Positions 31,268-35,292 of a stretch of 47,190 nt of DNA are shown here, piece after piece; position 1 is the stretch's first letter, and each line of letters begins with the position of its first letter. This stretch comes from Actinomycetota bacterium (GTDB lineage Bacteria > Actinomycetota > Actinomycetes > Nanopelagicales > Nanopelagicaceae). The stretch spans positions 1 through 47,190 of the forward strand of contig JAPLBF010000024.1 in the NCBI GenBank assembly GCA_026392825.1, given 5' to 3'. The notes under the pieces were generated by a model. That model searched no databases. It was not told the origin of the DNA and worked only from the letters and a program-made list of their open reading frames with translations. Both the position numbers and the translations under genes were made by a program.

Positions 31268-31555
31268 TTAGTTCTGGTAATCGGGTTGGGTGTCGTGCTT
31301 GGTATTACTGATCGCACCTTCGAGGACTTCTTCGATACGGATCACATTTATCAACTTGTCTAGCTGAGCAATTACTTGTTCCAGTGAATGACCCTCGACG
31401 CTTACTTCGATGATCATCTTGGAAATTTTGGAATTCTCGGTTGGGCCTACGACAAGGGAATCAATGTTGTAGGTACGTCGTGCAAATAGCCCAGCAATTC
31501 GAGCTAGTACACCTGGCTCGTTTTCGACAAGAACTTCTAGTTTATGAATGGCCAT
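31268..31555 (-). CDS. ilvN: Acetolactate synthase small (regulatory) subunit, short single-ACT form
   Basis: Regulatory partner of IlvB giving valine feedback control. The 95-aa protein is essentially one ACT domain (HKLEVLVENEPGVLARIAGLFARRTYNIDSL, residues 4-33). Most actinobacterial IlvN/IlvH proteins have a second C-terminal domain and are about 160-175 aa; here only 37 bp separate the stop from ilvC, so the second domain is truly absent and not lost by a nearby frameshift. E. coli IlvN (96 aa) shows that the short form can work. The start ATG overlaps the ilvB stop by one base. Confidence 0.93.
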   Translation of the reverse strand: MAIHKLEVLVENEPGVLARIAGLFARRTYNIDSLVVGPTENSKISKMIIEVSVEGHSLEQVIAQLDKLINVIRIEEVLEGAISNTKHDTQPDYQN

Positions 31556-33315
31556 TAGAGCTCCTGTGAATCCCAGTCAGGCGCAGTTGCGCGAGCGATC
31601 ATAATTTCATCATTAGATGTTCCTGCAGCGACCATCGGCCAGACCATTGCATCGCGATGAACGCGGAAGTCAACAACGACAGGTTGGTCATTGATTGACA
31701 TTGCTTTTTCGATTGTTGCATCAACATCTGCTGGACTCTCGCAAGAAAGTCCGACGCATCCCATTGCTTCAGCTAACATTGGAAAGTTAGGTACGCGCTT
31801 TGACTCGAGGCTGGTATTTGAATAACGACTGTCATAGAACAAGGTCTGCCATTGGCGAACCATTCCTAAGCTTTCGTTATTGATAATTGCAACTTTAATT
31901 GGAATATTATTTAGCGCACAGGTAACGAGTTCCTGATTTGTCATTTGGAAACAACCATCGCCATCTATCGCCCAGACAGTTGTATCTGGTGCGCCAACTT
32001 TTGCTCCCATTGCTGCTGGAACCGCATAACCCATAGTTCCGGCACCGCCTGAGTTAAGCCAAGTGCGTGGTTTTTCATAACTAATAAATTGCGAAGCCCA
32101 CATCTGATGTTGACCAACGCCCGCCGCGAAAATTGTGTCAGGTCCACAGATTTTGCCAAGACGTTCAATTACAAACTGTGGTGAAAGTGCACCATCGGCA
32201 GGCGTGTCATAACCCAACGGATAAGTTGCTTTCAACTTATTAACACTGGCCAGCCAAGGGGAGAGATCCGCTCTGCCCTTAGCCAGAGTCGCTGTTAACG
32301 CCGGGATCAAGGCCTTAATTGTTTCGCGCAAATCACCAATAACTGCAACATCGGCATACCGATTCTTGCCGATTTCAGCAGGGTCGATATCTGCGTGAAT
32401 AACCTTAGCGTTCGGTGCAAAAGTAGAAAGTTTTCCGGTTACGCGGTCATCAAAGCGCGCACCTAAAGTAATCAGTAAATCCGCTTTCTGCAGGCCAGTT
32501 ACAGCCGCAACAGTTCCGTGCATTCCTGGCATTCCAAGATGTAACGGATGCGAATCAGGGAATGCTCCGCGAGCCATCAAAGTTGTTACAACTGGTGCAC
32601 CAAGTAATTGTGCGAGCTCTAGTAATTCACGCGCTGCATTGGCCTTTATCACACCCCCGCCAACATAGAAGATTGGTTTTGCGGATTGCGCGATTAGTGC
32701 TGCCGCATCATTGATCGCACCCTTATTTGGTTGCGTTTGTGGTTTGTATCCTGCTAAATCGATTGATGTCGGCCAGTTATAGGAAGTCTGCTTCTGCAGC
32801 GCATCTTTTGCAATATCAACCAATACCGGTCCGGGACGTCCAGAAGTTGCGATATGAAATGCCTCTGCAATAACGCGTGGAATATCATCTGGATTAGTAA
32901 CCAAGAAGTTATGTTTTGTAAATGGCATCGTGATGCCGCGGATATCGGCTTCCTGGAAAGCATCGGTACCAATTGCAACAGAAGGAACTTGACCGGTTAT
33001 CGCGACAAGAGGAACAGAATCCATTGCAGCATCAGCAAGGGGCGTTACAAGATTTGTTGCACCCGGACCAGAAGTTGCAATACAAACACCAGCGCGACCA
33101 GTTACTTGTGCATAGCCAGTTGCAGCGTGTCCGGCACCTTGTTCGTGGCGCACCAAGATATGGCGAATTGTGGAGTCATAAATCGGATCGTAAGCAGGAA
33201 GAATCGCGCCGCCAGGAATTCCGAACATCACATCGACTTTGGCAGCTTCTAGGCTTTTCACCAATGAAGTTGCTCCAGTCATTGCCGTGCCGTTGGCAGT
33301 AGGTACGTGTGCCAT
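31555..33315 (-). CDS. ilvB: Acetolactate synthase large (catalytic) subunit
   Basis: ThDP- and FAD-dependent condensation of two pyruvates, or of pyruvate and 2-oxobutyrate. The 586-aa protein has catalytic Glu58 ([11 protein letters not shown]), the acetolactate motif [13 protein letters not shown] and the ThDP-binding segment [12 protein letters not shown] (around 449-460). It begins at ATG 33315 after a strong AAAGGAG. Upstream lies a leader peptide and terminator, so its expression is probably attenuated by Val/Ile/Leu supply. It heads the ilvB-ilvN-ilvC-serA-leuB-ilvE-cimA run. Confidence 0.97.
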
Positions 33316-33370
33316 CTTCTTACTCCTTTCCGTTCGATTCCGTTTGAATAAAATTCCATGCAGAGAAATG

Positions 33371-33394
33371 AAAAAACCCTCAGAATTCTGAGGG
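33371..33394 (-). terminator. Intrinsic terminator (attenuator) in the ilvB leader
   Basis: The stem CCCTCAG-AATT-CTGAGGG (33377-33394) is followed on the minus strand by six U residues (33371-33376). It is a textbook Rho-independent terminator placed between the leader peptide and ilvB, 56 nt before the ilvB start. It is directly preceded by an 8-bp hairpin that abuts it. Confidence 0.9.
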
Positions 33395-33418
33395 CGCGTG
33401 CTTTAAAAAGGCACGCGC
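33394..33418 (-). promoter_or_regulatory. Upstream hairpin of the ilvB attenuator
   Basis: GCGCGTGC (33394-33401) and GCACGCGC (33411-33418) form a perfect 8-bp stem with a 9-nt loop. On the transcript it begins inside the leader-peptide stop codon and ends at the base where the terminator stem begins. A ribosome stalled on the Val/Ile codons would cover its 5' arm. The competing antiterminator pairing is not obvious by eye. Confidence 0.75.
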
Positions 33419-33477
33419 TATCGAATCACCACCACAATTACAGACGATGAAGAGATAAGCGCGAGCTTCTTTTGCAT
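33418..33477 (-). CDS. ilvB leader peptide (attenuation)
   Basis: A 19-codon reading frame, MQKKLALISSSSVIVVVIR, ends at TAG. Ten of its residues are Val, Ile or Leu (4 Val, 3 Ile, 2 Leu) or hydrophobic neighbours, with the run VIVVVI immediately before the stop. This is the expected sensor of charged Val/Ile/Leu tRNA for ilvB control, comparable in position and content to the Corynebacterium ilvB leader peptide. The ATG is 6 nt after GAGAAT, so the transcript may start at or next to the ATG (leaderless). Confidence 0.85.
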   Translation of the reverse strand: MQKKLALISSSSVIVVVIR

Positions 33478-33483
33478 AGCCTT

Positions 33484-33513
33484 ATTCTCCAACGCCAATG
33501 GCGCTTGCGTCAA
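33484..33513 (-). promoter_or_regulatory. Putative ilvB promoter
   Basis: A -35 TTGACG (33508-33513) and a -10 GAGAAT (33484-33489) are 18 bp apart. The spacer holds the palindrome CGCCA-A-TGGCG (33493-33503). Just upstream of the -35 there is a TGAGA-N6-TCTCA repeat (33518-33533). Either repeat could be an operator. The gap between ilvD and ilvB (33316-33543) contains only this control region. Confidence 0.6.
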
Positions 33514-33543
33514 GGCGTGAGATGTAAGTCTCAAATTGTGAAA

Positions 33544-35217
33544 CTAACCGCAGACCGCGCCCTTTGAGGCAGAGCCCACTGATTTAGTGAACTTTGCCAG
33601 CACTCCGCGTGTAAATTTATGAGGAAGTGGATTCCAGCCGACTTTGCGGGAAGCAAGTTCGGCTGGATCTACTAAGAGATCCAAGGTGCGAGCCTTAATA
33701 TCAATTCGCACTAGATCTCCCTCTTTAATAAATGCAATTGGGCCGCCATCGACTGCTTCAGGGGAAATGTGACCCACGCACAATCCAGTTGATCCACCGG
33801 AGAAACGTCCATCAGTTAAAAGTAAAACTGACTTTCCTAACCCTGCGCCTTTAATTGCGCCAGTAACGCTCAACATCTCGCGCATACCTGGTCCACCCTT
33901 TGGGCCTTCGTAACGAATAACAACTACATCGCCAGCTTTAATTGTTCCGTTTTCCACGGCAGCCATCGCTGCAGGTTCGCGATCGAAAACGCGAGCTGGA
34001 CCTTCAAAAGTTTCAATACCAATACCAGCGGTCTTAGAAACTGCGCCTTCAGGTGCAAGAGAACCACCCAGAATTGTGATGCCAACATCAGTTGATAAAG
34101 GCTTTGAAATCGCATGCAAAATATCTCCATCAACATCAGGTGGATTAATTCCAGCAAGATTTTCCGCCATAGTTTTTCCGGTTACGGTCATCACATCGCC
34201 GTGCAGTAGGCCAGCATCGAGTAGCGCCCTTAGCACCACTGGTACTCCGCCAACTTTATCCATATCGCTCATGACGTAACGTCCGAAAGGCTTTAAATCA
34301 CCAAGAAGTGGAACTTTGGATCCGATTCTGTGGAAGTCGTCTAATTCGAGGTCGACTTCTGCTTCGTGCGCAATGGCTAAAAGATGTAGTACTGCATTTG
34401 TTGATCCACCGAGCGCCATCAAAATTGTTATCGCATTTTCAAATGCGCGCTTTGTCAAAATGTCACGCGTAGTTATTCCTTGACGAATCAGTTCGACAAC
34501 TGCAGCGCCAGATTTAACGGCAAATGCATCGCGGCGGCGATCAATGGCAGGGGGTGCAGCAGAACCAGGAAGAGATAGACCGATCGCTTCTCCGATACTG
34601 GCCATTGTGTTAGCTGTGTACATGCCACCACAAGCACCTTCACCTGGACAGATTGCTCGCTCAATTTGATCAAGTCGTTCTTTTGTAATCAATCCGCGCG
34701 CACAAGCGCCGACTGCTTCGAAGGCATCGATGATCGTGACATCTTTTCCATCTAGCTGTCCTGGCAGGGTTGAACCAGCGTAAACGAAGACAGATGCAAC
34801 ATCGATGCGAGCTGCCGCCATCATCATTCCGGGCAGAGATTTATCGCATCCAGCGAATGTCACCATTCCATCGAAACGCTCTGCCTGCATCACAGTCTCG
34901 ACAGAATCAGCGATGATTTCACGCGAAACGAGCGAGAAGTGCATTCCTTCGTGGCCCATCGAAATTCCGTCAGATACAGAGATGGTGCCAAATTGCATAG
35001 GGAAACCACCAGCATCAATCACGCCTTGCTTTGATGCCTTTGCTAAACGATCCAGAGATAAATTGCAGGGGGTGATTTCATTCCAAGATGATGCGATGCC
35101 AATTTGTGGTTTAACCCAATCTTCATCACCCATACCAACGGCACGTAACATTCCGCGGTTAGGGGCTCGCTCTAATCCATCTGTGACCAAACTGGACCTT
35201 GGATTCATCTTCGCCAT
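33544..35217 (-). CDS. ilvD: Dihydroxy-acid dehydratase
   Basis: Iron-sulfur dehydratase forming the 2-oxo acid precursors of valine and isoleucine. The 557-aa protein has the three cluster cysteines Cys51 (TPCN), Cys124 (GCDKSLPG) and Cys196 ([12 protein letters not shown]), and the C-terminal [20 protein letters not shown] motif. The ATG at 35217 lacks a Shine-Dalgarno, but TAGACT lies exactly 7 nt upstream, pointing to a leaderless transcript. It is upstream of and co-directional with ilvB but separated by 228 bp of control DNA, so it is probably its own unit. It is divergent from the MFS gene. Confidence 0.97.
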
Positions 35218-35230: not shown

Positions 35231-35292
35231 ATAGACTCTGCTCATTCACTCCAGTTAAAAACTCAGTAATTTACTTCTCAGAGGAGATCCTT

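Follow-up and report, generated by a model that had tools for sequence, protein, structure and literature searches.

The ilvBNC operon of the window (the whole 47,190-nt stretch of DNA analysed in this study) is very probably controlled by an ilvL-type, translation-dependent transcription attenuator located upstream of ilvB, in which a hairpin adjoining the terminator is proposed to serve as the switch. This reading is based on parts found at defined sites, their conservation in 105/106 ilvB upstream regions of the family, covariation, the register between leader codons and hairpin, a ribosome model and published precedents.

Organisation of the ilvB upstream region

The window belongs to an acI-type Nanopelagicaceae genome (1.38 Mb, 38 contigs). 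Its IlvB shares 97% identity with the IlvB of the acI-A4 strain Actinobacteria bacterium IMCC26103 (PMC5301498). The genes, with neighbours named from their sequences, are arranged in the order ilvD-ilvB-ilvN-ilvC-serA. The upstream gene is a 557-aa open reading frame on the minus strand (33544–35217), whose naming as IlvD is based on sequence and on its place in the operon, and ilvB, the gene of the acetolactate synthase large subunit, lies on the same strand (31555–33315). Between the end of ilvD (33544) and the start of ilvB (33315), the minus strand reads TTGACG-18-GAGAAT-AAGGCT-ATG, followed by the leader, hairpin 1 and the terminator. All features given below are on this strand.

The −35 element TTGACG (33508–33513) and the −10 element GAGAAT (33484–33489) are separated by an 18-nt spacer, and TTGAC is found in nearly all of the 105 family members that keep the arrangement. 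The leader peptide ilvL (MQKKLALISSSSVIVVVIR, 33418–33477) comprises 19 codons, ends with TAG (33420–33418) and carries the regulatory codons GTA ATT GTG GTG GTG ATT (VIVVVI, 33424–33441). Hairpin 1 (GCGCGTGC-N9-GCACGCGC, 33394–33418), the candidate antiterminator, has 8 bp and begins with the final G of the TAG codon. The stem-loop of the intrinsic terminator (33376–33395) is formed by CCCTCAG-AATT-CTGAGGG (33394–33377) and can be extended by a G–U pair (33395–33376), so that hairpin 1 and the terminator have 33394–33395 in common. The U-tract (T6, 33371–33376) and the ilvB ribosome-binding site AAGGAG (33323–33328) were read directly in the sequence. The promoter, 19-codon peptide, 8-bp hairpin and 7-bp terminator with six U residues that were described in the initial annotation were all found at the positions originally assigned to them.

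The leader RNA is more stable than expected by chance, with a minimum free energy (MFE) of −39.7 kcal/mol compared with −26.1 ± 3.35 kcal/mol in shuffled sequences (z −4.1; 0/200 shuffles as stable). The stability of hairpin 1 also exceeded that of its shuffles (z −3.1; 0/100 as stable). Branched-chain amino acid genes are elsewhere under the control of ppGpp riboswitches and T-boxes (PMC10272879), and the region might accordingly hold such an element in place of an attenuator. However, searches of the window with Rfam release 15, T-box and riboswitch families included, returned no match at the gathering threshold and only spurious matches, none of them credible, at a relaxed E ≤ 5. The short leader is moreover occupied by the peptide and two hairpins, and a riboswitch or T-box at this site is hardly conceivable.

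Conservation of the arrangement in the family

A sample of 121 genomes was drawn evenly from the family; ilvB was found in 111 of them, and 106 upstream regions, including that of the window, were readable. The complete arrangement was kept in 105 of the 106, a count that was made separately from the automatic detector, which is stricter. The detector demanded a −35 element, a start codon at 34–38 nt, an open reading frame of 7–35 codons with at least two adjacent V/I/L residues, and a terminator. It matched 152 of 186 ilvB upstream regions (high-GC actinobacteria included), 1 of 1860 Markov-shuffled sequences and 0 of 186 reverse complements. The interpretation of the region as an attenuator, which had been proposed from a single sequence, is thus borne out across the family, and the close relatives conserve both the peptide frame and the stems.

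In the sole exception (L170, G057:C191), the promoter and peptide are missing and ilvD continues directly into the 3′ hairpin arm and the terminator, possibly through a genuine deletion or through collapse of the assembly in this fragmented metagenome-assembled genome (MAG). Four records (L003, L024, L026 and L035) are titled Bifidobacterium breve and have ilvB regions that resemble those of freshwater actinobacteria, with the IlvB of L003 being 97% identical to that of the window. These records are probably mislabelled MAGs.

It is conceivable in principle that the terminator is a constitutive element that merely insulates ilvB from ilvD and that the leader frame arose by chance. The terminator does follow ilvD in most relatives, but the arrangement is also kept where the gene upstream of ilvB is not ilvD (L012, L025 and L028), and it therefore belongs to ilvB. 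The V/I/L run, the frame and the register are conserved, and synonymous changes are in excess in the leader frame: nearest-neighbour comparison gave 59 synonymous changes among 138, against 29% expected (p = 3e-4, for pairs that are not fully independent). Simple insulation is therefore a very improbable explanation.

The initial annotation had stressed the intact attenuator in a compact genome. Its presence was confirmed, but the feature is not special to one genome, being retained in 105 of 106 relatives. There is a bias against transcriptional regulation in streamlined acI genomes (PMC5301498). Almost the whole family nevertheless possesses this cis-acting switch, so that these abundant freshwater bacteria apparently continue to sense amino-acid supply at the ilvB operon.

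Promoter geometry and predicted leaderless translation

The first transcribed base is predicted to be the A of the leader ATG (33477), 6 nt after the −10 element. Counted from the first base of the −35 element, the distance to the start codon in 101 distinct promoters of the family was 35 nt in 49, 36 nt in 49 and 37 nt in 3; counted from the −10 element, it was 6 nt in 89 and 7 nt in 12. The promoter search demanded a start codon at 34–38 nt, and this spacing is therefore partly built in, whereas the −10 element and the base at −1 were free. The −10 element took the forms GAGAAT, GACAAT, GAAACT, GATAAT, AATAAT, GATACT and others, with A at −11 in 88% and T at −7 in 99% of the 101 promoters. 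The base at −1 was C in 80% and T in 16%, which is the pyrimidine–purine pattern of start sites. A sequence similar to a Shine–Dalgarno (SD) tetramer was present in just 38 of the 101 and is not conserved. Leaderless translation of the peptide is well supported at the sequence level by the fixed spacing between −35 and start codon, the pyrimidine at −1 in 96% and the lack of a conserved SD-like sequence. The earlier suggestion of a probably leaderless peptide, made from the −10 element 6 nt before the ATG of the window, is consistent with this family-wide geometry.

Alternatively, the peptide could be translated from a leadered transcript that begins at a promoter further upstream, with GGAG (33490–33487) as its SD sequence. 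This motif lies 9 nt ahead of the ATG in the window and could be used by readthrough from ilvD. It is better regarded as part of the −10 region, given that SD-like tetramers occur in only 38/101 promoters, whereas the −10 element and the −35/−10/start spacing are found in all of them and GATAAT, AATAAT or GAAACT stand in for GAGAAT in relatives. The homologous leaders of C. glutamicum and S. lividans have also been measured as leaderless, and a leadered origin of the peptide is improbable.

Register and codon choice of the leader

In all 85 distinct leaders, the V/I/L run ends 2–7 nt before hairpin 1 (sd 0.9). The position of the stop codon is much looser, ranging from 13 nt inside hairpin 1 to 4 nt before it, a 17-nt spread (sd 5.0). 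These figures refer to hairpins anchored beside the terminator; an unconstrained search returned the same core, or a longer hairpin reaching further into the terminator, in nearly all leaders and preferred another fold in a few (L110, L111, L142 and L181). Because the distance from run to hairpin is fixed while the stop codon wanders, the codon run and not the end of the peptide appears to be held in place, as ribosome stalling would need. The genus of the window is unusual in that the stop codon precedes hairpin 1; in most other genera, translation continues through the 5′ arm of the hairpin (peptides ending in ...ERAI or ...RCA).

Valine in the runs was encoded by GTG in 67% of cases (170/252, in 78 distinct leaders), although no valine codon is rarer in the genes nearby, where GTG accounts for 12% of 2633 (13% in the window). 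Both tRNA-Val(GAC) and tRNA-Val(UAC) are encoded in the window genome and in G091, a complete genome, and tRNA-Val(CAC) was not found in either of the two; GTG is therefore presumably decoded by tRNA-Val(UAC). In the high-GC relatives, 54 of 69 valine codons were GTA, which is also a UAC codon. Theory predicts that leaders favour codons read by the isoacceptor that responds most sharply to starvation (PMC1183508), and the choice of GTG, as far as codon counts can tell, fits this theory. The preference may also have a structural cause, as GTG|GTG yields GGU.

Hairpin 1, the terminator and the proposed switch

Covariation was analysed in 43 distinct sequences aligned with MAFFT. Both sides had changed in 7 of the 11 pairs of hairpin 1, and its covariation (0.163) was higher than in shuffled alignments (0.119 ± 0.008; 0/500 as high) and in every slid register. 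These values are probably underestimates, since the window clade is misplaced in the alignment, with its hairpin shifted by 2 nt. Compensatory changes are thus evident in one of the two stems in which they were sought; the pair counts of the terminator on this alignment are uninformative owing to misaligned CCC/CCCC variants. In L164, the terminator stem differs (GCCCACTGA/TCAGTGGGT) and its pairing is retained. The 2-nt overlap between hairpin 1 and the terminator occurs in the window and its close relatives, and in about half of the relatives the stems merely abut (gap 0 or +1).

The effect of the ribosome was computed with a model in which the 12 nt past the A-site codon are occluded. A ribosome placed on the first run codon gave a mean predicted probability of hairpin 1 of 0.87, which fell to 0.16 for the last run codon and to 0 for the stop codon; in the window, it was 0.98 at the first regulatory codon and 0 at the stop. 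The position of the ribosome would thereby switch hairpin 1. In the window, the modelled probabilities of the basal terminator pairs fell from 0.92/1.00 with the ribosome at the stop codon to 0.13/0.44 at the first run codon, because 33394–33395 are common to hairpin and terminator. For the abutting stems in about half of the family, the model predicts that the basal terminator pairs are unaffected, and competition at the boundary is consequently not established as a general feature.

We propose the following mechanism. Ribosomes would load on the leaderless AUG of a transcript whose start at the A of this codon is suggested by the promoter geometry. When charged valine and isoleucine tRNAs are ample, the ribosome would reach the UAG codon and its footprint would cover the 5′ arm of hairpin 1; with hairpin 1 blocked, the terminator would form completely and transcription would end before ilvB. 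Under a shortage of valine or isoleucine, stalling of the ribosome within VIVVVI would leave hairpin 1 free, and the 3′ arm of this hairpin would take 33394–33395 from the foot of the terminator, so that the weakened terminator would permit readthrough into ilvBNC. Against this proposal stand the restriction of the overlap to part of the family, the lack of leader–terminator pairing above the null models and the regulatory-codon substitutions in S. coelicolor that had no effect.

A substantial possibility, though one we favour less, is that the attenuator is the same and hairpin 1 acts as a pause or coupling hairpin for RNA polymerase, or in RNA protection, and not as an antiterminator. The switch would then lie elsewhere, for example in contact between RNA polymerase and ribosome or in stacking of the adjoining stems. 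In about half of the relatives, hairpin 1 and the terminator have no bases in common and can coexist, both are formed in the MFE structures, and the first hairpin of C. glutamicum has been proposed to act in pausing (PMC11857589). However, a place next to the terminator and dependence on ribosome position are constant features of hairpin 1, and in the window the hairpin costs the terminator its foot. While the attenuator is well supported, hairpin 1 is best described as a candidate antiterminator.

Other antiterminators were sought by computing how strongly the leader pairs with each arm of the hairpin and of the terminator (duplex energies, each compared with 200 codon shuffles). Pairing between leader and terminator was not above that of codon-shuffled leaders family-wide (mean p 0.43–0.45), and the leader–terminator antiterminator of the classical four-segment attenuators (trp, his and ilvGMEDA of enterobacteria) was rejected on a family-wide basis. 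An extended pairing of GGU (from GTG|GTG or a Gly codon) with RCC at the terminator foot had at least two extension pairs in 21 of 87 leaders; it was likewise rejected as it did not beat synonymous-codon nulls (mean p 0.34, by a measure that also takes in leader-internal structure). Leader codons 5–9 (33465–33451) can pair with the 5′ arm of hairpin 1 in the window and its nearest relatives (about −12 kcal/mol, p about 0.01). Strong pairing of this kind is confined to the window, L103, L105, L107, L104 and L108 (p 0–0.02), and the pairing is lost in L109–L111; on its sequence distribution, it may at best be a clade-specific feature resembling an anti-antiterminator. The earlier remark that antiterminator pairing is not apparent therefore holds for a classical conserved pairing, and the question is narrowed to hairpin 1 as the sole ribosome-sensitive structure adjoining the terminator.

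Palindrome upstream of the promoter

The palindrome TGAGACTTACATCTCA (33518–33533), a putative regulator site located 4 nt upstream of the −35 element and conserved in the family, was absent from the initial annotation. The motif TGAGA-N6-TCTCA, with at most one mismatch, lies 4–5 nt upstream of −35 in 81 of the 105 family members. Perfect copies of TGAGAY-N4-RTCTCA were found 0–2 times per genome in 14 genomes, mostly at ilvB. High-GC relatives have a related TGRGAC half, with a GTCCCA partner in Streptomyces. In L227 (G000 C16), an IclR-type gene is divergent to leuC, and the ndgR-leuC gap holds ATCCCATCTAATGAGAT, which corresponds to the ilvB half-sites facing outward and is conserved in other genera. 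A similar ATCTC/TGAGA pair (ATCTCCTCTGAGA) occurs upstream of ilvD (35277–35290), and ilvD may therefore share the regulator.

These sites raise the rather unlikely possibility that the main control is exerted by a DNA-binding regulator at the palindrome, with attenuation being secondary and an IclR protein of the NdgR/LtbR type as the best candidate. The palindrome is conserved and nearly ilvB-specific, the same half-sites lie outward in the gap between leuC and the divergent IclR gene, and NdgR of S. coelicolor binds ilvB, ilvD and ndgR-leuC (PMC4340878). However, the published NdgR motif (GTCCAC-N3-GTGGAC type) is unlike TGAGAY-N4-RTCTCA, and NdgR itself is for this reason no more than a possible binder of the palindrome; a regulator of the NdgR/LtbR type is a plausible putative binder. 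Such a regulator would not be exclusive with attenuation, which we continue to favour as the principal reading.

We also put forward, quite tentatively, a more specific form of the attenuator for Nanopelagicaceae with two hairpins and no classical antiterminator. A ribosome-gated hairpin in register with the valine codons, and not with the stop codon, would set termination by boundary competition or stacking; mainly tRNA-Val(UAC) would be sensed through the GTG runs, and an ilvB-only operator would add control at the promoter.

Comparison with known systems

The switching mechanism of attenuators that lack an obvious antiterminator is only partly settled for C. glutamicum and is still in question for Streptomyces; about 100 diverged copies, with leaders of 8 to 30 codons, allow it to be approached by comparison. 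Leaderless ilvL peptides have been published for C. glutamicum and S. lividans, and this part of the finding is therefore less novel than was first implied.

The ilvL of C. glutamicum ilvBNC (Morbach 2000; PMC11857589; ilvB-II motif, PMC10272879) precedes the same gene and encodes a leaderless Val/Ile peptide. Its transcription start and start codon are 1 nt apart, and control by valine is lost when Val codons are changed to Ala (PMC11857589); in line with this, the attenuator of the window would be expected to respond to branched-chain amino acids. As in the window, a hairpin adjoins the intrinsic terminator with a short common boundary, and the 2-nt overlap of the window resembles the boundary-trinucleotide model (PMC11857589). 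In C. glutamicum, however, the leader measures 292 nt, the boundary is GCC/GGC and there are three hairpins, of which the first folds over the start codon; the leader described here is compact, with two conserved hairpins and with leader–hairpin pairing in the window clade only.

In S. lividans and S. coelicolor (PMC8079986; PMC1262725), the same leaderless type of peptide precedes ilvB, 37 nt from the −35 element, and a hairpin is followed by the terminator. The ilvL of S. lividans is leaderless and encodes MRTRILVLGKRVG (PMC8079986); exactly this peptide recurred in the Streptomyces loci fetched here, with its start 37 nt from −35. Streptomyces differs in its codons (GTA/CTT/ATT instead of GTG/ATT) and in a long, variable hairpin loop. 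For S. coelicolor ilvB, substitutions of the regulatory codons are cited as having no effect (in PMC1262725). The ilvB1NC operon of M. tuberculosis has the same kind of branched-chain upstream open reading frame (uORF; LVVI) and an intrinsic terminator, with a longer leader of 166 nt, and changing LVVI to AAAA abolishes induction (PMC13236596). The polycysteine uORFs of mycobacteria (Canestrari 2020, as cited in PMC13236596) are also leaderless regulatory peptides, but they sense cysteine and are described there as acting by translational attenuation. The ilvB attenuator of Nanopelagicaceae is a further case of the switch known in Corynebacterium, Streptomyces and Mycobacterium.
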